Below, piece after piece: positions 25,840 to 55,565 of a stretch of 64,000 nt of DNA (positions are counted from its first letter, which is position 1; each line of letters opens with the position of its first letter). The notes under the pieces were generated by a model, which was not told the origin of the DNA, ran no database searches, and worked only from the letters and a program-made list of their open reading frames with translations. Source of the DNA: a virus; the IMG/VR virus record IMGVR_UViG_3300023174_000087, positions 1-64,000 of that record. The stretch is one strand, 5' to 3'. The position numbers were made by a program, and so were the translations under genes.

Positions 25840-26910
25840 ATGGCAGTTAGACAACAGCAACGCAGAGGTACCGCAGCACAGTGGACATCAGCAAACCCAA
25901 TTCTTTCAGCAGCCGAAATTGGTTATGAAACAGATACAAATAAATTTAAGATTGGTGATGGAACCAATCGTTGGTCAACTCTAAGTTATTTTGTTGATCT
26001 TGATACAATGATTGCTGGTGCACCAGGACTTCTAAACTCTCTTGACGAAATTGCAGCCGCAATTAATGATGATCCAGCATTCTTTACAACAATTGCATCA
26101 TCACTTTCTTCAAAAGCACCACTTGCTTCCCCAACTTTTACAGGTACCGTTTCAGGTATTACAAAGTCAATGGTTGGACTAGGATCAGTAGATAATACTG
26201 CAGATTCAGCAAAGCCAGTATCTACAGCACAGGCAACAGCAATTGCAACAGCAAAGTCAGAAGCAGTATCAACTGCCTCATCTGATGCAACTACAAAGGC
26301 TAATAATGCTAAATCAGGTGCAGAGACAACAGCAGCAACTGCTCTTGCTTCACACGAATCAGACACAACAAATATTCACGGCATTGCAGACACATCTGCT
26401 TTGGCTACAAAAACATATGCAGACAATGCAGCATCTACTGCAGTTGCAGCCGTTGTAAATTCAGCGCCAGAAGCGCTTAATACACTAAAAGAACTTGCAG
26501 ATGCACTGACTGCAGACGAATCAACAGCAGCATCACTTGCTACTCTTGTTGGTACAAAAGCACCTTCTGCAAATCCAACCTTTACTGGAACAGTACAAGG
26601 TATCACAAAATCTATGGTAGGTCTAGGAAATGTTGATAACACATCTGATACCAATAAGCCAATATCATCAGCAACTCAGACAGCGCTTGATGCCAAACTT
26701 GCTTCTGCAACTGCAGCATCAACATACGAAACAATTTCAAATGTAGCACTTAAGGCGCCATTGGCATCTCCAGCACTTACTGGTACACCAACATCTCCAA
26801 CTGCATCAGTTGGAACTAATACAACACAAGTTGCCACAACAGCATTTGTTAAAGCAGCAATTGAGAATATTGCTTCACTAGACTTAGTACTTGATGGCGG
26901 TGGAGTATAA
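25840..26910 (+). CDS. tail fibre with Mtd-N-like module
   Basis: This 356-residue protein has an N-terminal module QQQRRGTAAQWTSANPILSA... ending GDGTNRWSTLSYF (about residues 4-50), the widespread fibre motif resembling the Bordetella phage Mtd N-terminal domain. After it come two blocks of the form TFTGTVxGITKSMVGLGxVDNT. The C-terminus ends LDLVLDGGGV. The ribosome binding site is AAGGAGG. Confidence 0.8.
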   Translation: MAVRQQQRRGTAAQWTSANPILSAAEIGYETDTNKFKIGDGTNRWSTLSYFVDLDTMIAGAPGLLNSLDEIAAAINDDPAFFTTIASSLSSKAPLASPTFTGTVSGITKSMVGLGSVDNTADSAKPVSTAQATAIATAKSEAVSTASSDATTKANNAKSGAETTAATALASHESDTTNIHGIADTSALATKTYADNAASTAVAAVVNSAPEALNTLKELADALTADESTAASLATLVGTKAPSANPTFTGTVQGITKSMVGLGNVDNTSDTNKPISSATQTALDAKLASATAASTYETISNVALKAPLASPALTGTPTSPTASVGTNTTQVATTAFVKAAIENIASLDLVLDGGGV

Positions 26911-26971: not shown

Positions 26972-28963
26972 ATGACAACAAGAATGCAACAGCGTAGAGG
27001 AACCTCTGCACAATGGACTTCAGCAGATCCAATTTTAGCAAATGGTGAAATTGGAGTAGAAACAGACACTAACCAGTTTAAACTTGGAGATGGTGTTAAC
27101 GTATGGTCAGATCTCTCCTACTTTAAAAATCTTGATGACCTTGCTGGTTCTCTTGATGACTACGTATTATTAAGCACAAAGGGGCAAGCAAATGGAGTTG
27201 CAACTCTAGACTCTAATGCTCAAATTCCGCTTTCACAATTAGCAAATCTTATATCTTCAGCACCATTAGCACTAGACACATTAAACGAACTTGCAGCAGC
27301 ACTGGGAAATGATGCAAATTTTGCTACAACAATTTTAGCATCAGTTGCAACAAAACTTCCTACTAGTACATTTACAACACATGCAGCGACCACAACAAAT
27401 GTTCATGGAATTGCAGATACTTCAGTTCTAGCAACTGCTACAACGGTAGCAACCGCTAAAGCAGAAGCAATTTCAGCAGCAGCAACTTATACATCAACTG
27501 CAAAATCAGAAGCAATTTCTGCAGCAGCAACCGATGCAACAAGCAAAGCATCAAGTGCAGCAGCAGAAGCAGCAACTGATGCAACAACTAAAGCAGCAAC
27601 TGCAAAGTCAGAAGCAATAGCAGCAGCCGCTTCTGCAGCAGATACAAAAGTTTCAACACATAACACAGCAACAACAAACGTACATGGCATTACAGACACA
27701 GCAGCACTAGCGACTAAAACATATGCTGACTCAGCAGTATCAACTGCAGTTTCAGGACTTACAAAGTCTTCTGTAGGACTTTCAAACGTAGATAATACCT
27801 CTGACGCCAACAAGCCAGTTTCTACTGCAACTACAACAGCACTTGCACTTAAGGCTAATCTTGCCAGTCCAACTTTCACAGGAACAGTTTCTGGAATTAC
27901 AGCATCAATGGTAGGCCTTGGAAATGTCAATAACACAGCAGACACTGCAAAGCCTGTTTCAACAGCACAGCAAACAGCACTTGATGCTAAGTTGGCACTT
28001 TCTGGCGGAACAATGACAGGAGCACTTACACTATCAGCAGATCCTACATCAGCACTTCATGCGGTTACTAAACAGTATGCAGACGGACTTGCTGCTGGAA
28101 TTAACTTTCACCAAGCAGTAGTTGCAGCATCAGCAGGCAACCTTGCTGGTGTTTACAATAATGGAACAAATGGTCTTGGTGCAACAATTACAGCATCAGC
28201 AAATGGTGCTATTGGAACAATTGATGGTGCAACAGTTTCTGTTGGTTCTAGAATTCTTCTTCGTGCACAAACAGATGCAACTCAAAACGGTATTTACACA
28301 GTAACTGACCTTGGAAGCGGATCTACAAAGTGGGTTGTAACTCGTGCAACAGATGCAGATAATAATCCAGCAGGTGAACTTGCAACTGGTGACTTCTGTT
28401 TCGTAACAGCAGGCTCAACAAATGCTGCTAAGGGTTATATCCTAAGCACAACAGGAACAATTACAATTGGAACTACAAATGTTAACTACACACAGTTTAA
28501 TGCTTCTGAAGCCGTAACTGCTGGTACAAATATTACAAAGTCTGGTTCAACAATTTCTGTTGCAGATGCACCAACATTTGCTGGGCTTGTAACAGCCTCA
28601 GCAGCAGGTGTTGCATTCTCAGACGGTACACAAACAAAGGAAGGCGTAGTCTCACGTACACCAATTATTCAAAAGACAGCAGCCTACACACTATCAGCAC
28701 TTACAGAAAGAGACTCATTGATTGAAGTATCTTCTGCATCAGCAGTTACCTTAACAATCCCAACAAATGCAACACTAGCCTTGCCAGTAGGAACATCTAT
28801 AGATATTCTTCAGACTTCTACTGGACAAGTAACAATTGCAGGAGCAGCAGGAGTTACAGTTAACGCTACACCAGGTCTAAAACTACGCACACAGTGGTCT
28901 GGAGCAACTCTTTTTAAGAGAGCAACAGATACTTGGGTAGTTTACGGCGACCTATCAGCATAA
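26972..28963 (+). CDS. long tail fibre with Mtd-N-like module
   Basis: This 663-residue protein has an N-terminal module MQQRRGTSAQWTSADPILAN... (paralogous to 25840), an Ala-rich helical rod (about 155-240), blocks with SVGLSNVDNTSDANKPVS and MVGLGNVNNTADTAKPVS, a middle segment with LTLSADPTSALHAVTKQYAD, and a C-terminal domain shared with the 18067 product. It is probably trimeric and host binding. Confidence 0.85.
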   Translation: MTTRMQQRRGTSAQWTSADPILANGEIGVETDTNQFKLGDGVNVWSDLSYFKNLDDLAGSLDDYVLLSTKGQANGVATLDSNAQIPLSQLANLISSAPLALDTLNELAAALGNDANFATTILASVATKLPTSTFTTHAATTTNVHGIADTSVLATATTVATAKAEAISAAATYTSTAKSEAISAAATDATSKASSAAAEAATDATTKAATAKSEAIAAAASAADTKVSTHNTATTNVHGITDTAALATKTYADSAVSTAVSGLTKSSVGLSNVDNTSDANKPVSTATTTALALKANLASPTFTGTVSGITASMVGLGNVNNTADTAKPVSTAQQTALDAKLALSGGTMTGALTLSADPTSALHAVTKQYADGLAAGINFHQAVVAASAGNLAGVYNNGTNGLGATITASANGAIGTIDGATVSVGSRILLRAQTDATQNGIYTVTDLGSGSTKWVVTRATDADNNPAGELATGDFCFVTAGSTNAAKGYILSTTGTITIGTTNVNYTQFNASEAVTAGTNITKSGSTISVADAPTFAGLVTASAAGVAFSDGTQTKEGVVSRTPIIQKTAAYTLSALTERDSLIEVSSASAVTLTIPTNATLALPVGTSIDILQTSTGQVTIAGAAGVTVNATPGLKLRTQWSGATLFKRATDTWVVYGDLSA

Positions 28964-31399: not shown

Positions 31400-33433
31400 A
31401 TGTCAGATTTTTTTAGTTTTAAACTTCCAGAGGACTTTGTAGAAAAGTACAAGAACCAAGAAAGCCCATTTGGGTTTAAGGATGCAGCAGAAAATTCACT
31501 TGGAGAGATTACTTTTATTCGTACGTATTCTCGCATGAAAGAAGATGGAACTAAGGAAAGATGGCATGAAGTTTGTCGTCGTGTAATCGAGGGTATGTAT
31601 TCAGTTCAAAAGAATCATGCTAAAGAAAACCGTTTGCCATGGAATGACTACAAGGCTCAGAAGTCTGCACAAGAAGCATTCCAAAGAATGTTTGAATTGA
31701 AGTGGACACCACCAGGACGAGGCATGTGGGCATTTGGAACTCCTATGACTATGGAGAAGAAGAACTCAGCAGCACTACAAAACTGTGCAATGGTATCTAC
31801 AAAGGACCTTGACAAGAATGATCCAGGAGCGTTGTTTGCTTGGGTTATGGATGCCCTTATGCTTGGCATTGGTGTAGGGTTTGATACAGTGGGACAGGAT
31901 AAGCATTTCTCAATCTATGCCCCAACAGAACCTGAACAGGTGTTCGAAATCCCAGACACTCGTGAAGGATGGGTAGAGTCAGTCAGACTTCTAATAAACT
32001 CATACCTAAGAGCAAACCAAAGTATTCAAAAGTTTAACTATAACTTGATCAGACCACTTGGATCCCCAATTAAGGGCTTTGGAGGCGTTGCATCAGGACC
32101 TGCACCCCTTATCAAGTTGCACAACCAGATAGACCGTGTAATAGGCTCCAGAGGGGGAGAAACACTAGATTCTCGTGCCATCGTAGACCTTGTAAACCTC
32201 ATTGGTACTTGCGTTGTATCAGGTAATGTTCGTAGATCAGCAACACTTGCTTTGGGAAATGCAGGTGATGAAACATTTATGAATCTAAAGAATGCAGAAC
32301 TATTCCCAGAGCGTAACTCGTTTGATCCAGAGAATCCAGGTTGGGCCTGGATGTCTAACAATTCTATTTCAGCAGAAGTAGGAACAAAGTACGAAGACTA
32401 TGTAGATTTAATTACAGAAAACGGAGAACCAGGTTTTATCTGGCTTGATGTTGCTCGTAATTATGGACGACTAAAGGATGCGCCAGACGGTAAAGATTAT
32501 CGTGTGATGGGATTTAACCCATGTGCGGAGCAGCCATTGGAGTCATACGAATTATGTACACTTGTAGAAGTGCACTTGAATCGTCATGAATCTAAGGAGG
32601 ACTTCCTGCGTACTCTGAAGTTTGCATACCTTTATGGAAAGACTGTAACACTTGTTCCAACACACTGGCCACAAACAAACGGCATCATGCAACGTAATCG
32701 TCGTATTGGTACATCTCTTACTGGTATTGCATCATTTGCAGATCAAAAGGGTTTACCAGTTGTTCGTGAGTGGATGGACGAAGGCTATAATAAAATTCGT
32801 CATTATGACCATCAGTATTCAGAATGGCTGTGTGTTCGTGAATCAATCCGTGTAACTACAGTAAAACCATCTGGCTCGGTTTCAATTCTTTCTGGTGCAA
32901 CTCCTGGAGTTCACTGGGGTCCTGGAGGAAACTTCTTCCTTCGTGCAGTTCGATTTGGAACTACAGATCCAATGATTCATTTGTTCAAAGCAGCAGGGTA
33001 TACAATCGAAGATGACGTAGTATCAGCAAATACATCGGTAGTTTATTTCCCAATTAAATCAGGTCATCCAAGATCTGAGAAAGATGTAACATTATTTGAA
33101 AAGATTGCTCTTGCTGCAACTGCTCAAAAATATTGGTCTGATAATGGAGTTTCTGTTACACTTTCATTTGACAAAGAAACAGAATCTAAGCACATCGTTC
33201 CAGCATTAAATATGTATGAGGGACAGTTGAAAGCAGTATCATTTCTTCCAATGGGAAACACTGTTTATCCACAGCAGCCATACACACAAATTACTGAAGA
33301 ACAGTATGAGTCGTATATTGGTAAATTAAAGCATATTGATTTTTCTGCAATTTACGACGGTGTAGATAATCTTGAGGCTCAAGGTGAAGCATACTGTACA
33401 ACAGATTATTGTGAAATTAAAATAAACAAGTAG
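31400..33433 (+). CDS. nrdJ: adenosylcobalamin-dependent (class II) ribonucleoside-triphosphate reductase
   Basis: This 677-residue protein reduces ribonucleotides to deoxyribonucleotides with vitamin B12. Matching the monomeric RTPR type: NC129A at the first redox Cys, the NPC375AE377QPL active-site loop (radical Cys with Asn and Glu), C386, and a C-terminal C666-x4-C671 redox pair. It is slightly shorter than the Lactobacillus enzyme (739). The ribosome binding site is GAAAGGAC. The codons are more GC-ending than those of neighbouring fibre genes, as expected for acquired or highly expressed genes. It supplies dNTPs during replication. Confidence 0.93.
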   Translation: MSDFFSFKLPEDFVEKYKNQESPFGFKDAAENSLGEITFIRTYSRMKEDGTKERWHEVCRRVIEGMYSVQKNHAKENRLPWNDYKAQKSAQEAFQRMFELKWTPPGRGMWAFGTPMTMEKKNSAALQNCAMVSTKDLDKNDPGALFAWVMDALMLGIGVGFDTVGQDKHFSIYAPTEPEQVFEIPDTREGWVESVRLLINSYLRANQSIQKFNYNLIRPLGSPIKGFGGVASGPAPLIKLHNQIDRVIGSRGGETLDSRAIVDLVNLIGTCVVSGNVRRSATLALGNAGDETFMNLKNAELFPERNSFDPENPGWAWMSNNSISAEVGTKYEDYVDLITENGEPGFIWLDVARNYGRLKDAPDGKDYRVMGFNPCAEQPLESYELCTLVEVHLNRHESKEDFLRTLKFAYLYGKTVTLVPTHWPQTNGIMQRNRRIGTSLTGIASFADQKGLPVVREWMDEGYNKIRHYDHQYSEWLCVRESIRVTTVKPSGSVSILSGATPGVHWGPGGNFFLRAVRFGTTDPMIHLFKAAGYTIEDDVVSANTSVVYFPIKSGHPRSEKDVTLFEKIALAATAQKYWSDNGVSVTLSFDKETESKHIVPALNMYEGQLKAVSFLPMGNTVYPQQPYTQITEEQYESYIGKLKHIDFSAIYDGVDNLEAQGEAYCTTDYCEIKINK

Positions 33434-45012: not shown

Positions 45013-45654
45013 ATGGCAGATTATACAAGAGGTTCGAGCAACAACATTATCGTTGGTGCTGCAGCACTTTTCACATATGATCTAGGTGTCTTATCAGATG
45101 CCGATCTTCCAGCATACGAAGCAGCAACATCATTTAAGGATTCCCTTACAAACGATGCTGACTACACAAATGTTGGATATACAAGCAATGGTCTTGAAAT
45201 TCAGTTCCAACCAGACTTCGGTGAAGTTAAGGTTGATCAGGTTCTTGACGTTGCTAAGTTGTACAAGCAGGGAATGCAGGTCTCATTGAAGACAACATTC
45301 GCTGAGTCAACACTTGAGAACCTATTGTTCTCACTTGCAGGAAAAGACGCAGATCTAAACGCTTACAATACAGCAGGCGCAGGATCTAAGGCACTTAATC
45401 TTTCAGCAGGAGACATTGGAGAATGTCCAGTTGAAAAGGGACTAGTTGCAGTTGGACCAGGTACAGGTGACTGTGCTGCAGGATCAACCAAGGAGCGTAT
45501 TTATGTTGCATACCGTGCACTTTCAATTGAAAATGTTACAGTATCAGCAAAGCGTGACGAAGCAACAATGTTTGAAGTGAACTTCCGCCTTCTTCCAAAT
45601 GATAATGCATCATATGGTAAGATCGTAGATCGTACAATTCCAGCAGGCGCATAA
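45013..45654 (+). CDS. major tail tube protein
   Basis: This 213-residue protein begins MADYTRGSSNNIIVGAAALF, has VGYTSNGLEIQFQPDFGEVK and ends with INFRLLPN-type and IVDRTIP segments. Length, position and C-ending codons match an abundant tail tube (V) protein. It is preceded by TATAAT with a leader and an AAGAGGTG ribosome binding site. A strong terminator follows. Confidence 0.85.
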   Translation: MADYTRGSSNNIIVGAAALFTYDLGVLSDADLPAYEAATSFKDSLTNDADYTNVGYTSNGLEIQFQPDFGEVKVDQVLDVAKLYKQGMQVSLKTTFAESTLENLLFSLAGKDADLNAYNTAGAGSKALNLSAGDIGECPVEKGLVAVGPGTGDCAAGSTKERIYVAYRALSIENVTVSAKRDEATMFEVNFRLLPNDNASYGKIVDRTIPAGA

Positions 45655-45670
45655 TATAACTTAACATGAG

Positions 45671-45703
45671 AAGCCCAACCCTTCGGGGTTGGGTTTTTCT
45701 TTT
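45671..45703 (+). terminator. strong rho-independent terminator
   Basis: CCCAACCC-TTCG-GGGTTGGG followed by TTTTTCTTTT, right after the tail-tube gene. Confidence 0.92.
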
Positions 45704-45705
45704 GG

Positions 45706-45711
45706 TATACT
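45706..45711 (+). promoter_or_regulatory. leaderless extended -10 box
   Basis: TGGTATACT ends 6 nt before the ATG at 45718, directly after the terminator. Confidence 0.65.
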
Positions 45712-45717
45712 ATATAG

Positions 45718-46401
45718 ATGGCTACAGAAATCTATAAAACAAAAATAATTCAATTAATTGATGGCACAGAGTTAGAAATTTCTCCATTAAAAATTAAATA
45801 TTTAAGAAGATTTATGGATGAATTTGAAAATGTAAGATCATCAAAAGATGATATCGAAGCCATATCAGCATTAGCAGAATGTGCAAGAATTTGTATGCAA
45901 CAGTTTAAACCTGAAATATCAAAAACAATTGAATTACTTGAAGACTCTGTTGACTTAGCAACTATTTATGAAATTTTAGAGGCGTCAGCAGGAATTAAGA
46001 TTAATCAACAATCAGAAGAGCCTGTTAAAAAACAGGCAGTAGAGAGTGGTTCATCTTGGGAAGATTTAGATTTGGTCAAACTTGAGTCAGAAGTATTTTT
46101 GCTGGGTATATGGAAAGACTATAATGAACTTGAAGAATCTTTATCTATGCAAGAAATAACAGCAATACTAAATGTAAAAAGAGAAGAAGATTATACTCAT
46201 AAGAAATTTCTTGCAGCAATGCAAGGAGTAGATCTTGATAAAGGAAATAACAAATCTAATGCTTGGGAAGAAATGAAAGCCAGAGTGTTTAGCGGAGGGC
46301 AAGCAGCAAATGCAAATGACATAGTAGCACTACAAGGTGTAAATGCTCAAAGGGCTGGATTTGGTATTGGTATGGGATTAGATTACGAACAAATAGATTA
46401 A
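45718..46401 (+). CDS. long tail assembly chaperone (G-T-like)
   Basis: This 227-residue protein has an N-terminal domain (IQLIDGTELEISPLKIKYLR... to ASAGIKI) that aligns with the 46452 product. An extra C-terminal domain (about 105-227, WEDLDLVKLESEVFLLGIWK, ILNVKREEDYTHKKFLAAMQ) has no counterpart there. This resembles the G and G-T proteins that normally come from one frameshifting gene, but here the two are separate genes. It acts on the tape measure before tail assembly. Confidence 0.75.
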   Translation: MATEIYKTKIIQLIDGTELEISPLKIKYLRRFMDEFENVRSSKDDIEAISALAECARICMQQFKPEISKTIELLEDSVDLATIYEILEASAGIKINQQSEEPVKKQAVESGSSWEDLDLVKLESEVFLLGIWKDYNELEESLSMQEITAILNVKREEDYTHKKFLAAMQGVDLDKGNNKSNAWEEMKARVFSGGQAANANDIVALQGVNAQRAGFGIGMGLDYEQID

Positions 46402-46451
46402 AATACGCTTGTGCTATGGTATAATTAACTAACAAACCTAATGGAGGAATA

Positions 46452-46769
46452 ATGTCAGAAAAAGCATCAACAACAAAAAAGGTAACCCTTATTGATGGAA
46501 CAACCGTAGAAGTTCGTCCACTTAAGATTTCTTTGCTTAAGCCATTTATGAAGCGATTTGCAGATCTTGCAGGGGTATCAGAAGACAATGATCAGTCAAT
46601 GGATGTATTACTAGATTGCGTAGAGATTGCATTTAAGCAGTACATGAAGGAAGAGATTACTCGTGAAACACTTGAGGAAAATATTGATCTACCAACAGTG
46701 TACGAAGTAATTGATGCAGCATCAGGTATTCAACTTACTGATCCAACATCAATTTTGTCAGCACGATAA
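46452..46769 (+). CDS. short tail assembly chaperone (G-like)
   Basis: This 105-residue protein, VTLIDGTTVEVRPLKISLLK..., is paralogous to the first 95 or so residues of the 45718 product and lacks its C-terminal domain. It is preceded by TATAAT and AGGAGG and is followed immediately by the tape measure gene. I see no obvious slippery heptamer linking the two. Confidence 0.75.
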   Translation: MSEKASTTKKVTLIDGTTVEVRPLKISLLKPFMKRFADLAGVSEDNDQSMDVLLDCVEIAFKQYMKEEITRETLEENIDLPTVYEVIDAASGIQLTDPTSILSAR

Positions 46770-46793: not shown

Positions 46794-49700
46794 GTGTCAG
46801 ATGTAAACGCTAATATTGGTATACATTTTGATACTGCCAACGCCCTTGCACAACTAAGACAATTACAGGCTGGTCTTAGTAAGTTTAATCAATCCCTTAC
46901 TGAGGGAAATGTTGCATCAGCAAATGCTCAAAAAGGTTTAAATGCTCAACTGATGCAGTCTATAAATGCTACGGGCAAGTTTGTAGCATCTCAAAGAAGT
47001 ATTGCATCAAGTACAGCATCTTTTACTGATGCACTTGAAAAAAATAAACTTAGTATGGGGCAGTATTTTAAATACACCTCTGCTGCAGCATCCCTTAACA
47101 GTAAAATGCTTCAAGGGTTTTTTACAAAAGAAAAAGAAATTCTTAATCGTGCAAGTAAGGATAGAGTTAAGGCCCTACAAACACAATATGTTCAATTAAC
47201 TAATGCCAATGGTGAGTTAGTAAAGGTTCTTCAGGTTGTTCCAAAACATCTTCAAATGGTTAATGGACAATATGCAGATTATGCAACAAGAACACAGATG
47301 GCTGCACAAAGACAGCAATTTCTTAATCAATTATTAAAGCAAGGATCTACACAACTTTTAAATTTTGGTAAGAACACTCAGTGGGCTGGTCGCCAACTTA
47401 TGGTTGGTTTAACAATTCCTTTGGTTATGTTAGGATCTACAGCAGCAAAAACATTTAGAGATATGGAACAGGCTACTGTAAAGTTCCAGCGTGTTTATGG
47501 TGATATGCTTACAAGTGTTGCAGATACCGATAAAGCAGTAGAAGGCATAAAGGTGCTTGCAAAAGAATTTACAAAGTATGGAGTAGCAGCAACAGACACC
47601 ATGAATCTTGCTGCTCAGGCAGCAGCGATGGGTCTGACAGGTGCAGCACTTCAAGAACAGGTTACATCAGCAACAAAACTTGCAGTACTTGGACAGGTTG
47701 ATCAACAACAAGCGCTTGAAACTACAATTTCTTTACAAAATGCTTTTGGTATTTCTTCAGAACAACTAGCACAAAAAATTAATTTTCTTAACGCTGTTGA
47801 AAACCAAACTGTTCTTTCTATTGAAGATTTAACGGTAGCAATTCCAAAGGCTGGTCCTGTTGTAAAACAACTAGGTGGATCAGTAGAAGATTTAGCCTTC
47901 TTTATGACTGCAATGAAAGAAGGAGGCATTAACGCATCTGAAGGTGCAAATGCACTTAAATCTGGTCTTGCTTCTATGATTAATCCTTCAAAGAAAGCAA
48001 GCGATATGCTTGCAAGTCTTGGGGTTAACATAAAGGGAATTGTAAATGCAAATGCTGGAGATCTAAAAGGAACAGTTGTAGGGTTTGCAAGAGCACTAGA
48101 TACACTAGCGCCTCTTGAAAGATCTAGAGCAATTGAACAACTATTTGGTAAGTTTCAATTTGCACGTCTTTCAACTTTATTTCAAAATATCACAAAAGAT
48201 GGAAGTCAGGCTGCAAAGGCTTTTGGTTTAGCAGGAGCATCGGTAGAAGAACTTGCAATCCTATCTGAACGAGAATTAGGAAAAGTAGAAAACGCAGTTG
48301 GTGTTAAATTTCAAAAACAAATTGAAAATTTAAAAATTCAACTTATGCCAATAGGAAAAGCATTCCTTGAAGCAGTAACTCCAATTGTACAGTTTGCTGG
48401 AAAAATGCTTGAAAAATTTAATAATCTTAGTGATGGAACAAAAAAGTTTGTAGTTGGTTTTATTGCAGTTTTGGGTGGAATTGCTCCAGCCGTACTTATG
48501 ACTGTTGGTCTTGTTGCAAATGGCGCAGCAAACCTTATCAAGTTTTTTGCAATGCTCCGTGGCGGAATGGCAAAACTTAATGGGCAAAACAATGTTCTTG
48601 GCGGGGGATTTGATTATTTAACACAACAAGAAATTGAAAATTTAACTCAATCGCAAGCACTACATACATCACATAAACAACTTATTGAAACATTTAATGT
48701 TGAATCAACATCTGTAAACCTATTAGCAACAGCGTATGCCAATGCAGCATCACAGGCAAGATCTCTTGCTTCAGGGTCACCAGGACTATTTAATGGAAGT
48801 CCAGGTGCAGTTGGTGCAGTTTCAGGACTACCCAAGAAGTTTGCATCAGGTGGAGTGGTTCCAGGAACAGGAAATGGAGATACCGTTCCAGCACTCCTTA
48901 CACCAGGAGAATTTGTAGTAACAAAAGATGTTGTTAAGCAAAACCCAGAACTAATTGCTGCACTATCAAATAAAAATGTTCAAAAATTTGTAGATGGGGG
49001 AATTGTTGGTGGAAATTCAATGTTCCTTCAAAAAGAAAGAGATAGAATTGCAAATCTTGATGATTCACAACTTATTGCTTATGCAAGCAAGGTTGGCGTT
49101 GATATAGCAGATACATCCAAAACTGCACTAGAGGATATTAGAAAGATGATATCTTCAGAGTTTGAAAAAATATTACAGGATGTACAGTCAAAATTTGGCA
49201 AAATAACACAGTCTGGAATAACAGAGGTTGGAAAAAAGTTTGATCCAGAAAAGGGTTCAAGCAGAATGGGTGCCTATTATCCAAAGTTTGATCAATTGCA
49301 AGGACAAGAATTCTCACATGTTGGACAAACTAAAGCAGTAGATGCTACATATGGAGATAACCTAAACTTAATTCCGCAGGCTCGTAATCAAGTAGAACTT
49401 ATTAAAAAGTTTTATGGAGATGGTGGCGGTAGTGGTGAGATGCCACAACTCAAGGTTGCTGATGCTCATGGATTTATGTTAAAGGGCAAACTAAATAATG
49501 CAATGTCAACTTTAGGCAAATCTGCAAGTTATGAAAAAGCAAATGGAGCAGGAAGCCTAGGAAAAGATTTTCAGGCAGACTTTGAAAAAACTGGTGCTGA
49601 AAAATGGAGAGCAATGACCACCATGATGGGGGGAGATTTTGATCAGTTAAAGTCGCAAGCAGAGGTTTATGACAAACTATTAATAGATAAACTAAGTAAG

Positions 49701-52700
49701 TGGAATTCGGAAAATCTTGCAAAACCTATACCACAAATTTTTGATGATGCTACTTTTAAACAAATTGAATCTCAAGTAACTGCAGATATGCAAACGCTTG
49801 CTCCAGAATTTTCAAAGATTGTCGATCAAGCAAAAGAAAGTATTACAGCAATAAGAATAAGCCTTGGCAATGATTTTGAAGAAGTTAATGCAATGCTTAA
49901 AGCCAATGGCGCAGGAACACTTGGAACAAACCCAAACAATGCAAAAATACTAAATTATGAAGCAAGACCAGATAATGCAAAATTACTTGGAACAATGCAG
50001 GAGGGTGCATCTTTAGGCGATGCTGCAGTTAAGGGGGTAAGATCTAAATCTGGAACAGATGCTGGATCACCATCAAAGAAAGCAAAGTCTGCTGGAGAAG
50101 AAGTTGGCGATGGACTAATCGAAGGCATGAAGTCTAAAGAAGCAGAGGTTCAGTCTCAATCATCTAAACTCGGAAATGCTGCAGTACCAACAGAAAAAGA
50201 AATTAGAGATGGTGCAATAAAGTCTGTCAAAAAATCTGCTAAAAAAGCAAGCAAATCTAGAAACTCAGTTAAAGATTCAAACACTTCAACAATGGTTGTT
50301 GATGCAGAAAATGTAAGCGTATCACAAGATATTGTAAAATCAAAGAAAAAACAACTTGCACTTTCTGATGAAACAGTATTAGCACAGCAGGCTCAAACAC
50401 AAGGAACAATTACTGCAGCAGAACTAACACAAGCAGCATCACTTAACCTTGGAGACTCCGCAAGTAGTGCTGAGCAAATCAATACAGCACAACAAGATAT
50501 GCTTAATTCATCAATAGAATCTTCAAACCTTGAGGATCTTTCTGTTGTTGAAAAACAAAAACAAGTTGAACTATTAAAGAGATATAATGCTGAAATGGCT
50601 GCACAGGTAGCAGGAGTTCAAATACCTATTGGTTCACAGACTAACGGAATAAATCCTTCTACAGCACTCAGTTCAGTTGATGCCTACGAGTTAGCCTCAA
50701 CATATACAAGAGACAAAAATGGTAGCATCTTAATGGATCCAGAAACTGGCAATCCAACATCTATGAGCAAAAAACAGATTACTCAAAAAAAGCGTGGAAT
50801 GCGTAGAGAAAAGGCTGGAAAGTATTCTGGAAAAGCAGCAGGAGCACTCGGAGTTGCTACTATGGCAGCAGGCGCAGTTGGTGCACCTCCAGCAGTAACT
50901 GGGGCATTAGGAGCAGCATCAACAGTTGCATCTATGGCTCCAGCCCTTGCAGGCATGGGTCCAGTTGGCTGGACAGTTGCTGGAATAGCAGCACTTGGTG
51001 CTGGAGCATACATGCTAAATCAGCATTTTAATAAAATAGCAGAGGCATCAGCAAAACTTGCTACTGCAACATCTGCAACAAGAGAGAGCATGAAAAAGAT
51101 GGGTGAACTGACTGGAAAAGTCGGGGCATCTCAAATTATGGACAAGCGCAGATCAACAACACAATATGGAAAATACTCAGAATCTCTTAAACTAGATAGA
51201 ACATTTGGAAATACATTTTTAGGTTCAGATCTTGGTAAACAGGAAAAGAAAACATTTAAAGAAAACTCATCAAAGTTTGGTGTAGAGCAAGCAACCTCAG
51301 ATCTTGCTCTTAAGTTATCTGCACAAGTCGCAGATGGAGTTCTTGGTAAAGACCAAGCAGAAAGCATCGCAGCAGCGCTTGCATTATCATTAAAAAATCA
51401 AAAAATTGAAATGCAAGTAACTGGAAAAATGAGAACTATTTTGGGTCCAGATGGAGAAGATCTAAAAGATAAGCCATTAAAGACAAGAGTTTTACTTATT
51501 GCTACAGCAAGACAAAGAAGCGAAAAAGCATTAAAAACAATTGAAACAAAAAGAGAAAATGGGGATAGCGCTAGAAAAGATATAGCAGCGCTTGCTGCAT
51601 ACAATATTAATAATCTTGAACTTGCAACAATGCAAGCAGACGCTGTTCAGTATGAATATGAAACACAAAAGAAGAAACTTGAAATTGAAATTGCTTCAAC
51701 AGCAAATGCTCAAAGAAAAGTAGAACTTGAAACTCAACTTGGTACACTAAACTCTAATAATCTTAAAAATACTGAAACAATGAACAACCAAGTTCTTATG
51801 AATATTAAACAAGCAGAACTTGATTTCCAAAAAGTTTATAGTGGATCTGTTTTGGGAAGTCAGGCAAATAGAGAGGACGCTTTCTTCGATGCCTCTAGAA
51901 CTACAGTAACCAATGCTTATAAAGGTACAGATCAAGAAAAATCAGCATCCAATTTCTTAAAAAATACAAAGCAACTTGAGACTGGTGCAACATCTGGAAC
52001 CTATAATAGCAAAACAAGTTTATATGAAAAAAATGGTCTTGGAACTGCAAGAGCAGCACAAACATTCCAAGCAAAAATGGAACTATTGGTTGGCGGAAAA
52101 GTAATTAGTCCAGATGAAGCAAATTCATGGATGAAGATGTTTAAGGGAAAACTAAATGAACTTGATTTAGCAATTAATACAAGCATTAAATTAAATGGCG
52201 CAGGTAAGACAAAAGAACTATTTAATATGTTCTCAGGATTTAGAAACAAAAAAGTTGCAACAAATATGATTCAACAGATTCTTTTAACAAAGAAAAATCC
52301 TGCAGAATTTGATGCAATTATGGAAACATTAAAGAATCTACAGGCACTTGATGGAACAGCAATAGATATGGAAGTTTTAATTAAATCTATTGGTTTATCT
52401 GGAGTAGATAAAATTAAAAAAGAATTTGAGCAAATTGAAGCATTAAAAGAAAAAGCAAAAAAAGAAGGCAAAAAGATAGACTTAGAAGAAGTAAAGAAAA
52501 AAGGCGGAACTGTAAATCCCGCAATTGAAGCACTTCAAAAAGATACTAAAGCCTATAAGAAATTTACTGACTTAAATGTAGAGCAACAGGGCGAGTACTT
52601 ACAAAAACTAACTGCTGCATATGCTTATCAATCACAATTAACAGACACACAACTTGAAGAAGAAGCAGCAACATGGGCTGCAGCACAGTTATGGGAAGAG

Positions 52701-55565
52701 GGAATTTCACAAGATGATGCAAAATACAAAGATTCATTAGCAGCAAAAATTGCAACCTATCTTTCAAAAGGACCCCAACAAAGAGCAGTTGATTCTTTAA
52801 TACCATATCTAGATCCAACAATACCTTCAAAAACTGGAAATGGTGCAGGTGGTGGTGGTGGCGGAACAAGAGATGCAACTTATGATGATTTATTAAAGCG
52901 TTTGAGAAATGTTCGACTGGCTGCACTTAATGCAGCAGGAGGTTTTAAAGAACTTGAAAAAGCCATAGCAGCATCTGGAAGTAAAGCAATCAAGAATCAG
53001 TTTAATGGTTTAGAGCAACAACTTATTAAACTTGGAAAGTCTACTCAATTTTCTGATTATTTGGCGGGACTTGATCAAAAAGAATTAAATGTAATGGGCA
53101 AGGCTGCAACTAAAAATGGCATTGATCCAAATACAGGTAAAAAGAAAAAGGGTGTAAAGGCTGGAGACTTTATTCTTAGTGATAAAGGTCAAAAGATGGA
53201 AAAGGGCTTTGATAAAGCCGTTATAGGAGATTACAATAAAGAGCAGTTAAAATCTGTAACATTGGCCAAGCAGGAGATTGCAGCAAGAGGAAAACTTTTA
53301 GCACTGGGCTTTAAAGAAGTAGATATTCAGACAATGCTTGCAGATGAAAACTATAAGACACTTATTGCCACAGGCAAAGTAACTGATGCAGAATTAAAAA
53401 CAAATGCTGCACTAACCCAGCAAGCAAGAATTAGAAATCAAATTAATGGCGCAGTTGCTGGACAAAAAGAGTTGCAAAAAACTACAGAAAATCAAAAAAG
53501 AATTCCAGAAGTTATAAAAATGATGCAACAGGCAGGAATGGATGCAGAAGCAATCCGTGCAGCAATATCAGATCCAGCAATGTTAGATACGTTAATAACT
53601 GGAATGGATAATTTTGCTACTTTGGCCAAAGATGCTCAAGCAGAATTTAATCATCTATTGTCACAGATTAATGAAATTCCAGAAAGAAAAATTGTTGAAA
53701 TTGCTTTTACTCAAACAAGAGAAGAAAAAATAATTAATGCTGCAAATGCCGCAGCAGAAATGTTTGATGCCTATAAGATGATTGATGAAAATACAATAAA
53801 GAATGCACAAGGAAATACTTATGCCAGCATTCAAACTCAGATGGATAACTTAAACAATCAAGCAAAAATTGTTCAAGACAGCATAAATATAACACAATCA
53901 CAGATTGATACTCTTCAGCAAGAAGTAGATAAAGATCAAAGAAATATAGAAACAAACTTTACTCGTCCAATTGAAGCAAAGCAAAGAGCAATTGAAAAAC
54001 TAAATCGTACAGCAGAAATGAATTTTGTTCGTCCAATACAAACACTTCAAGATAGATCTGCTATTTTATCTCATGATTTAGAAGTAATGAGCCATGCAGC
54101 AGATCAGATTAATGAAAAATATGATAAGCAACAAGAAGCCCTTGCCAAGGTTTCTGAAATTAACCAACAAATTATTGAACAACAACAGCAACAACTTGGG
54201 TTAGCAGATGCATTATCCTCTGGAGATATTTCAGCAGCAGCAAAGGCTGTACAAGGAATGCGATCAACAAGTGCATCAAACTATGCACAAAATGCTGATA
54301 AGGCTTTGCAACAAGCAAGACAAAATGAAATTGATGGACTACGTGGTGGAGTAAGTGGAAAATCACAAAAAGATATTCAAGAAGAACAATATCAAATTGG
54401 GCAACAGGTTTATGATCTTGAACAAAAGAAGGCTGCCATTGATGTAGAGATACTTAAGATTCAGGATGAAATTTATAGTCTAGAGCAATCAAGACAAGTA
54501 GCACTTGATGCAATTCAAGTTAAAACAGATGCAATTGCTAAACTTCAATACGGAACACTTCTTGATCAGCAAAACCAACTTAAAACAATAAACGATCAAA
54601 ACCTTAAGTTACAGTTACAGAGTGATGTTCTTGCATTGCAAATAAGTCAAAATGATGCAAACAGAATTATTCAAGGCCAAACTAGAGCAGAGTGGGATCT
54701 TACATTAAAAGCAGCCCAGGCCGCAGAAAAACTTGCAAAGGGGGATCTTGCTCTTGCACTTGCTGGAATCAATACGGTTTCTGGTACAGTAAAGGGCGCA
54801 TGGGACTCTATCAAATCATCTTATGATGCAATCAAAGATAAATCCATTACCATAACTCAACATATTGTTACTACATATGGAACAGCACTTGGTTTACCAC
54901 CAGTCACACCAACAGTTCCACCGCCTTCAGGAGATCCAGCAAAGGCTCCAGGATCTGCTTGGGTTTCTGATGGCAACGGTGGCTGGAAGCAACCAACAAA
55001 ACCTGCTGGGGATTATGGTTGGGATGATAATCAAGGTTGGGTAAAGGGTTATTATAAAGATGATGCTAATATACCACAGCCAGGATCACAAACAGATTCA
55101 GCAGCAGAAGCAAATATGAGAGCAAAAGCACTTGAAGAAACAGCAAGAAGAGAAAAAGAAGCAGCAGACGCTAAAGTACAGGCAGAGGCTCTTGCATTGC
55201 TAAAAGCAAAAGAAGCAGCCTCAGCAAAAGCAGATCGCATTGCAACTGGATTTGGCTGGTATGGATTTGCTAAAGGTGGAATAGTTCCAAAATATTTTGC
55301 ATCAGGTGGTTTTGCTCGTGGAACAGATACAGTTCCAGCAATGCTAACCCCAGGAGAATTTGTAATGAGTAGATATGCTGTAAATAGCCATGGCATAAAT
55401 AATATGAGTGCTTTAAATTCAGGAACATCAATGGGCGATTCAGTGTATAATTATAACTTAAATGTAAGTGTAAGATCAGATGCTAGTCCAGACGAAATTG
55501 CAAGAACGGTAATGGCACAAATAAAGCAAGTAGACTCACAAAGAATTAAGGGGAATAGACTATAA
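46794..55565 (+). CDS. tail tape measure protein, giant
   Basis: This 2,923-residue protein with a GTG start determines tail length. Visible parts: an N-terminal coiled coil; a TP901-1-like core (about 195-330, MEQATVKFQRVYGDMLTSVA); hydrophobic segments near 545-580 and 1345-1405; an SPSK-x5-G-x3-GDGLIEGM motif near 1090; two repeats of the type GDTVPALLTPGEFVV (about 690 and 2845); long coiled coils at 2340-2650. It ends one base into the next gene. By the usual 0.15 nm per residue it predicts a tail of about 430 nm. Confidence 0.93.
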   Translation: MSDVNANIGIHFDTANALAQLRQLQAGLSKFNQSLTEGNVASANAQKGLNAQLMQSINATGKFVASQRSIASSTASFTDALEKNKLSMGQYFKYTSAAASLNSKMLQGFFTKEKEILNRASKDRVKALQTQYVQLTNANGELVKVLQVVPKHLQMVNGQYADYATRTQMAAQRQQFLNQLLKQGSTQLLNFGKNTQWAGRQLMVGLTIPLVMLGSTAAKTFRDMEQATVKFQRVYGDMLTSVADTDKAVEGIKVLAKEFTKYGVAATDTMNLAAQAAAMGLTGAALQEQVTSATKLAVLGQVDQQQALETTISLQNAFGISSEQLAQKINFLNAVENQTVLSIEDLTVAIPKAGPVVKQLGGSVEDLAFFMTAMKEGGINASEGANALKSGLASMINPSKKASDMLASLGVNIKGIVNANAGDLKGTVVGFARALDTLAPLERSRAIEQLFGKFQFARLSTLFQNITKDGSQAAKAFGLAGASVEELAILSERELGKVENAVGVKFQKQIENLKIQLMPIGKAFLEAVTPIVQFAGKMLEKFNNLSDGTKKFVVGFIAVLGGIAPAVLMTVGLVANGAANLIKFFAMLRGGMAKLNGQNNVLGGGFDYLTQQEIENLTQSQALHTSHKQLIETFNVESTSVNLLATAYANAASQARSLASGSPGLFNGSPGAVGAVSGLPKKFASGGVVPGTGNGDTVPALLTPGEFVVTKDVVKQNPELIAALSNKNVQKFVDGGIVGGNSMFLQKERDRIANLDDSQLIAYASKVGVDIADTSKTALEDIRKMISSEFEKILQDVQSKFGKITQSGITEVGKKFDPEKGSSRMGAYYPKFDQLQGQEFSHVGQTKAVDATYGDNLNLIPQARNQVELIKKFYGDGGGSGEMPQLKVADAHGFMLKGKLNNAMSTLGKSASYEKANGAGSLGKDFQADFEKTGAEKWRAMTTMMGGDFDQLKSQAEVYDKLLIDKLSKWNSENLAKPIPQIFDDATFKQIESQVTADMQTLAPEFSKIVDQAKESITAIRISLGNDFEEVNAMLKANGAGTLGTNPNNAKILNYEARPDNAKLLGTMQEGASLGDAAVKGVRSKSGTDAGSPSKKAKSAGEEVGDGLIEGMKSKEAEVQSQSSKLGNAAVPTEKEIRDGAIKSVKKSAKKASKSRNSVKDSNTSTMVVDAENVSVSQDIVKSKKKQLALSDETVLAQQAQTQGTITAAELTQAASLNLGDSASSAEQINTAQQDMLNSSIESSNLEDLSVVEKQKQVELLKRYNAEMAAQVAGVQIPIGSQTNGINPSTALSSVDAYELASTYTRDKNGSILMDPETGNPTSMSKKQITQKKRGMRREKAGKYSGKAAGALGVATMAAGAVGAPPAVTGALGAASTVASMAPALAGMGPVGWTVAGIAALGAGAYMLNQHFNKIAEASAKLATATSATRESMKKMGELTGKVGASQIMDKRRSTTQYGKYSESLKLDRTFGNTFLGSDLGKQEKKTFKENSSKFGVEQATSDLALKLSAQVADGVLGKDQAESIAAALALSLKNQKIEMQVTGKMRTILGPDGEDLKDKPLKTRVLLIATARQRSEKALKTIETKRENGDSARKDIAALAAYNINNLELATMQADAVQYEYETQKKKLEIEIASTANAQRKVELETQLGTLNSNNLKNTETMNNQVLMNIKQAELDFQKVYSGSVLGSQANREDAFFDASRTTVTNAYKGTDQEKSASNFLKNTKQLETGATSGTYNSKTSLYEKNGLGTARAAQTFQAKMELLVGGKVISPDEANSWMKMFKGKLNELDLAINTSIKLNGAGKTKELFNMFSGFRNKKVATNMIQQILLTKKNPAEFDAIMETLKNLQALDGTAIDMEVLIKSIGLSGVDKIKKEFEQIEALKEKAKKEGKKIDLEEVKKKGGTVNPAIEALQKDTKAYKKFTDLNVEQQGEYLQKLTAAYAYQSQLTDTQLEEEAATWAAAQLWEEGISQDDAKYKDSLAAKIATYLSKGPQQRAVDSLIPYLDPTIPSKTGNGAGGGGGGTRDATYDDLLKRLRNVRLAALNAAGGFKELEKAIAASGSKAIKNQFNGLEQQLIKLGKSTQFSDYLAGLDQKELNVMGKAATKNGIDPNTGKKKKGVKAGDFILSDKGQKMEKGFDKAVIGDYNKEQLKSVTLAKQEIAARGKLLALGFKEVDIQTMLADENYKTLIATGKVTDAELKTNAALTQQARIRNQINGAVAGQKELQKTTENQKRIPEVIKMMQQAGMDAEAIRAAISDPAMLDTLITGMDNFATLAKDAQAEFNHLLSQINEIPERKIVEIAFTQTREEKIINAANAAAEMFDAYKMIDENTIKNAQGNTYASIQTQMDNLNNQAKIVQDSINITQSQIDTLQQEVDKDQRNIETNFTRPIEAKQRAIEKLNRTAEMNFVRPIQTLQDRSAILSHDLEVMSHAADQINEKYDKQQEALAKVSEINQQIIEQQQQQLGLADALSSGDISAAAKAVQGMRSTSASNYAQNADKALQQARQNEIDGLRGGVSGKSQKDIQEEQYQIGQQVYDLEQKKAAIDVEILKIQDEIYSLEQSRQVALDAIQVKTDAIAKLQYGTLLDQQNQLKTINDQNLKLQLQSDVLALQISQNDANRIIQGQTRAEWDLTLKAAQAAEKLAKGDLALALAGINTVSGTVKGAWDSIKSSYDAIKDKSITITQHIVTTYGTALGLPPVTPTVPPPSGDPAKAPGSAWVSDGNGGWKQPTKPAGDYGWDDNQGWVKGYYKDDANIPQPGSQTDSAAEANMRAKALEETARREKEAADAKVQAEALALLKAKEAASAKADRIATGFGWYGFAKGGIVPKYFASGGFARGTDTVPAMLTPGEFVMSRYAVNSHGINNMSALNSGTSMGDSVYNYNLNVSVRSDASPDEIARTVMAQIKQVDSQRIKGNRL

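Follow-up and report, generated by a model that had tools for sequence, protein, structure and literature searches.

Long-tailed phages conserve a −1 frameshift in their tail assembly chaperone genes (Xu, Hendrix and Duda 2004; reviewed in PMC5009743), and in lambda the two resulting products, gpG and gpG-T, are needed at about 30:1 (PMC5009743). The locus described here, in which the short and the long form are encoded by two separate genes, raises the question of whether a gene duplication can take the place of this frameshift. It lies in a stretch of 64,000 nucleotides (hereafter the window; positions 1 to 64,000 of IMG/VR record IMGVR_UViG_3300023174_000087), which belongs to a viral contig of 115 kb.

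The gene pair and its domains

Both ORFs which a sequence-only reading of the window had placed at 45718 and 46452 are present (Table 1), and the long gene stands, as had been described, 5′ of the short one and ends 50 nt before it. The same reading called the genes divergent, which holds for their sequences but not for their orientation, as both lie on the + strand. The pair stands between the gene for the major tail protein and that for the tape measure protein, the same position as in relatives that use a frameshift. At about 0.15 nm per residue, the tape measure protein would correspond to a tail of about 440 nm.

Table 1. Features of the tail assembly chaperone locus (positions in the window)
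Feature	Position	Strand	Details
Major tail protein gene (upstream neighbour)	45013..45654	+	phrog_885 major tail protein, E 2.8e-7; phrog_2175 Ig-domain protein, E 3e-33
Predicted intrinsic terminator of the major tail gene	45671..45703	+	Stem AAGCCCAACCC, loop TTCG, GGGTTGGGTTT, then T run; directly before the long-gene promoter
Extended -10 element of the long gene	45703..45711	+	TGGTATACT; ends 6 nt before ATG; no Shine-Dalgarno sequence
Long tail assembly chaperone gene (G-T equivalent)	45718..46401	+	227 aa; ORF, PHROG, BLASTP
Extended -10 element of the short gene	46417..46425	+	TGGTATAAT; 26 nt before ATG
Shine-Dalgarno sequence of the short gene	46443..46447	+	GGAGG
Short tail assembly chaperone gene (G equivalent)	46452..46769	+	105 aa; N domain only
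Tape measure protein gene (downstream neighbour)	46794..55565	+	2923 aa; phrog_10030, E 3.6e-97; Pfam PhageMin_Tail, E 7.8e-28

The long protein comprises, in one reading frame, an N domain (approximately residues 1–98), a linker and a C domain (approximately residues 114–227). Its N domain shares 37% identity with that of the short protein over 101 aa (BLASTP, E 4e-21). In the profile search, a negative outcome of which would have spoken against homology of the two, both the long and the short protein match phrog_10504 (E 4e-21 and 1e-18, respectively), whereas phrog_10474 is matched by the long protein only (residues 131–210). The long product thus indeed consists of the short-form domain plus a C-terminal domain. 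Both PHROG families are listed as of unknown function and gain a likely role here, phrog_10504 as the chaperone N domain and phrog_10474 as the chaperone C domain.

Homology extends to proteins already named tail assembly chaperone, with tblastn matches to Streptomyces phage chaperones at E 4e-32 for the long and E 2e-13 for the short protein. Pfam matches were sub-threshold only (Phage_TAC_19; E 0.036 for the short protein of the window and 7.7e-4 for the best relative). The predicted structures (pLDDT 72 for the short and 76 for the long protein) both contain a beta hairpin and four helices, to which the long protein adds a helical C part. For both models the best solved match is the tail assembly chaperone of HK97 (2ob9), a weak similarity with Z-scores of 4.2 and 4.4. 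In a comparison with viral models, that of the long protein is matched to the G-T protein of N15 (E 9e-3) and to a chaperone of an Arthrobacter phage (E 5e-3).

In its position before the tape measure gene, its common N domain and the C-terminal extension on the longer product only, the pair resembles gpG and gpG-T of lambda, and presumably the two proteins have the same two roles. The differences are that here two genes are used without recoding and with the long gene first, and that frameshifting gives lambda identical N parts, whereas the N domains here are only 37% identical. A programmed frameshift close to the 3′ end of the short ORF, as is typical of G and G-T chaperones, was not found. 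The sole X XXY YYZ heptamer of the short gene in the window is located near its start (46475), and a frameshift out of this gene, including one into the tape measure gene, was rejected as stop codons interrupt both alternative frames at its 3′ end. A frameshift product of the gene at 46452, the detection of which would have contradicted the sequence-only reading, can hence not be derived from the sequence.

Two exclusive layouts among relatives

The long protein was searched against 50,697 GenBank phage records and matched 132 of them, all from Streptomyces or Rhodococcus phages and at one site per record. Eight records were inspected in detail or in part (EGole, Annadreamy, Francesca, Coruscant, Wakanda, Karp, Ankus and the distant Jenst). 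In the first seven, a single N-domain ORF, usually annotated as tail assembly chaperone, is followed by the C domain in the −1 frame, and for Rhodococcus phage Francesca, which is of this frameshift type, the depositors annotated the chaperone as a joined gene. The Stanwilliamsviridae of Streptomyces (EGole, Annadreamy, Coruscant and Karp) and Francesca share the phrog_10504 and phrog_10474 domains and the position of the locus with the window, but differ from it in that a single N ORF is followed by a C domain read in −1. The C domain of the long gene is 36–52% identical to the −1-frame C domain of the frameshift relatives, with many residues being invariant across both. Several phages of the Stanwilliamsviridae and Francesca type have CCCAAAT as slippery site, and −1 reading from this site gives a Gly/Ser-rich linker and then the C domain; EGole and Coruscant have CCCGGAA. 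In one branch of Streptomyces phages (L153, L158, L164 and L169), CCCGGAA replaces the usual heptamer at the same place, with the C domain still in the −1 frame.

Profile searches yielded the long plus short layout, in which N and C domain in one frame are followed by a short N gene, at 258 loci (187 distinct nucleotide stretches) and the single-ORF layout at 128 loci (107 distinct), where the C domain is in −1 in every case; the distinct counts are to be preferred, as the loci include repeated copies of some contigs. CCCAAAC, CCCAAAT or GGGAAAC lies in the open overlap of both frames in 120 of the 128 frameshift loci. Slippery heptamers in the last 90 nt were found in 7 of 61 short genes and 9 of 61 long genes of the duplicated layout. 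The other 16 loci are contig-end truncations, frameshift loci with a split N or C match, or the distant Jenst (L162, N only). Hybrids, either a frameshift gene with an extra short gene or a long gene without a short one, were absent from all fetched loci, and 124 of the 128 frameshift loci extend far enough past the C domain to reveal a second copy. Apparent cases of a long gene without a short one were rejected as transition steps, as all of them stop at a contig border. A second C domain after the short gene was found in none of the 258 loci.

The relatives with the duplicated layout are all uncultured contigs, and the nearest relatives found of the gene pair are frameshift-type actinophages. 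A scan of bacterial genomes gave a single match, of the frameshift type, in a bin labelled cyanobacterium. From the relatives among Streptomyces and Rhodococcus phages and from the leaderless genes described below, our guess is that the host is a low-GC freshwater actinobacterium. Elsewhere in the window, two neighbouring proteins (25840–26910 and 26972–28963) contain Mtd_N, the N-terminal domain of the major tropism determinant (E 4e-14 and 5e-13), and a B12-dependent (class II) ribonucleotide reductase is encoded by the phage at 31400–33433.

The survey also touches on existing annotations. In five Stanwilliamsviridae records (L153, L154 and L158–L160), the second ORF is entered as a gene of its own that begins at an internal start and is often called a hypothetical protein; its frame and its overlap identify it as the C-terminal portion of a chaperone made by frameshifting. 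The gene JENST_33 of Brevibacillus phage Jenst bears the name DNA polymerase III subunit gamma/tau, but its product is matched by the profile of the chaperone N domain (E 2e-9) and it stands shortly before the tape measure gene. It is probably a misnamed tail assembly chaperone.

Start signals, terminators and codon use

The start signals were surveyed in 61 diverse genomes with the long plus short layout. A Shine-Dalgarno sequence precedes the long gene in none of these 61 genomes, and a -10 element, often TATACT, ends 5–9 nt before its ATG in 60 of them (exactly 6 nt in 45). Control ATGs reach the same -10 score in 10.6% of cases, and a stricter score is reached by 53 of the 61 long genes against 0.7% of controls. 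With the -10 element only 6 nt from the ATG, the transcript is predicted to be leaderless. The long gene had been credited with a leaderless promoter of its own, and as a conserved signal this promoter is real. The short gene, on the other hand, has TGnTATAAT 24–42 nt upstream as well as a Shine-Dalgarno sequence of at least 4 nt in all 61 genomes. The genes of the frameshift type resemble the short gene in this respect (Shine-Dalgarno sequence in 27 of 28, far -10 element in 21 of 28).

In the gap before the long gene, a terminator-like hairpin was found in all 59 of 59 relatives, compared to 0 of 177 shuffles. No such hairpin occurs between the long and the short gene (0/61) and none after the short gene either. 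As there is no terminator between the genes, transcripts of the long gene would also carry the short gene. Two promoters are thus predicted to feed the short gene and one the long gene, and the predicted -10 hexamer has the consensus sequence for the short gene but is often weaker for the long one. Codon adaptation, with the major tail proteins as reference, is higher for the short than for the long gene in each of the 61 genomes (means 0.634 and 0.501), as one would expect with a greater demand for the short product.

The pattern of an extended -10 box (TGnTATAAT or TATACT) ending 5–9 nt before the ATG without a Shine-Dalgarno sequence was also observed at the window gene starts 15333, 16565, 21611, 22151, 22819, 30546 and 62654, and leaderless starts therefore appear to be a general habit of this phage. 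Actinobacteria can translate leaderless genes well, so that a leaderless start alone is no proof of a low expression of the long form. Taken together, the promoters, -10 elements, Shine-Dalgarno sequences and codons are independent signals which all favour an excess of the short form, and they suggest a corresponding ratio of the two proteins. G and G-T chaperones are characterised by a large excess of the short form, by the absence of both products from the virion and by their binding to the tape measure and major tail proteins; of these traits, the sequences show signals for unequal expression. The proposal that this ratio is controlled by transcription holds at the level of conserved signals (opposite promoters and starts, codon bias); the same signals also point to translation initiation and codon usage.

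Origin of the pair and probable replacement of the frameshift

In a tree of N domains (61 long, 61 short and 28 frameshift sequences), the long ones form one clade (support 97) and the short ones another (support 95), which indicates one old duplication. The nearest frameshift phages (L192, L196, L222 and L226) are 58% identical to the short proteins but only 41% to the long ones and join the short clade; the alternative with long and short as sisters, at about 100 columns, has an AU p of 0.55. A duplication just before or just after the split from these phages would therefore both fit the tree. Most simply, this is read as one duplication, after which the long copy changed more than the short one. 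For the major tail protein and the C domain, the trees require two and four layout changes, respectively, of which only one is forced by well supported branches, and they are thus neutral with regard to a single origin.

The long N domains sit on a long stem branch and evolve faster than the short ones (mean pairwise identity 0.51 and 0.63). This would also fit a long paralogue that has given up the G-T chaperone function for a different one in tail assembly, such as baseplate initiation or capping, leaving the short protein as the only chaperone. We consider this improbable, as the C domain, which is specific to G-T, shows the highest conservation (0.67) and belongs to the same family as that of the frameshift type, and as no genome with the long plus short layout has lost the long gene. 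Even less credible is an additional origin of the short form from recoding within the long gene, with an early end at the AAAAAA run of the linker (46027–46032) and the second gene as a supplement with another task. The long gene of the window does have GTT AAA AAA CAG at the domain boundary, where a +1 shift at the run would reach a TAG two codons later. However, the run is not a proper in-frame X XXY YYZ heptamer, and the Lys-Lys pair of the linker is not conserved in relatives (KD, KS, KE, KN and others), for which reasons slippage at this site was rejected; the small number of slippery heptamers near the end of the long genes speaks against it as well. The layout occurs in 187 distinct sequences from many metagenomes, with both genes under purifying selection (dN/dS 0.06–0.08), which refutes an artefact of assembly as well as a chance local duplication confined to a single genome.

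It is highly probable that a duplication with unequal expression replaced the frameshift and that the two genes make both chaperone forms without recoding. That gene duplication substitutes for the frameshift had already been proposed from the window, and the two exclusive layouts (258 and 128 loci), the loss of the heptamer and the homology of the C domain to the −1 part all bear this out.

The replacement may have started from an ancestor with a −1 frameshift, whose chaperone locus would have been duplicated in tandem. The upstream copy would then have been fused in frame, so that it always gives the long form, and would have lost its leader, which placed the -10 box and the putative transcription start next to the ATG. 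The downstream copy would have lost its C domain, so that it always gives the short form, while keeping the ancestral promoter, leader and Shine-Dalgarno sequence. An excess of the short form, which lambda achieves because slippage is rare, could then result from the second, consensus promoter of the short gene, from the read-through of long-gene transcripts, from a Shine-Dalgarno sequence as opposed to a leaderless start, and from better codons. A large number of short molecules would cover the tape measure protein and a few long ones would bring in the major tail protein, for which both genes are probably needed. A more specific idea, which we regard as rather unlikely, is that the frameshift was replaced by two modes of initiation, with a scarce long form made from a leaderless and an abundant short form from a leadered, Shine-Dalgarno-bearing start. 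If this was true, the ratio of short to long form could follow the balance of leaderless and Shine-Dalgarno initiation in the host (growth state, ribosome pool), a host-tuned ratio that goes beyond what a fixed slippery site offers.

Separate chaperone genes have been described before. T4-like phages are reported to encode the short form and a long fusion form in separate genes instead of using a frameshift (Vladimirov et al. 2022, as cited in PMC10885494), which is, as far as described there, also the arrangement in the window. In contrast to the T4-like phages, which are myophages, the present group has close relatives that still use the frameshift, so that the change can be placed on a tree. 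Its two genes furthermore have conserved opposite start signals, leaderless and Shine-Dalgarno, whereas the T4-like pair is represented here by its published description only. For Microbacterium phages of cluster EA, the part of PMC7302621 that concerns them reports some subclusters with two chaperone ORFs, apparently expressed separately and without evident frameshift; a repeat of the N domain in the second ORF is not part of that description. Going by these accounts, the principle of separate genes is already known. In the literature available to us, we did not find a description of this phage group, of a switch from frameshift to duplication among close relatives or of conserved opposite start signals.

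Few instances of programmed recoding are as well conserved as the chaperone frameshift, which raises the question of what maintains it. A large phage group that lacks the frameshift, beside close relatives that have it, amounts to a natural experiment on its benefits. As the frameshift supplies a fixed ratio and identical N domains, this group allows to ask whether promoter, start signal and codons can replace these.
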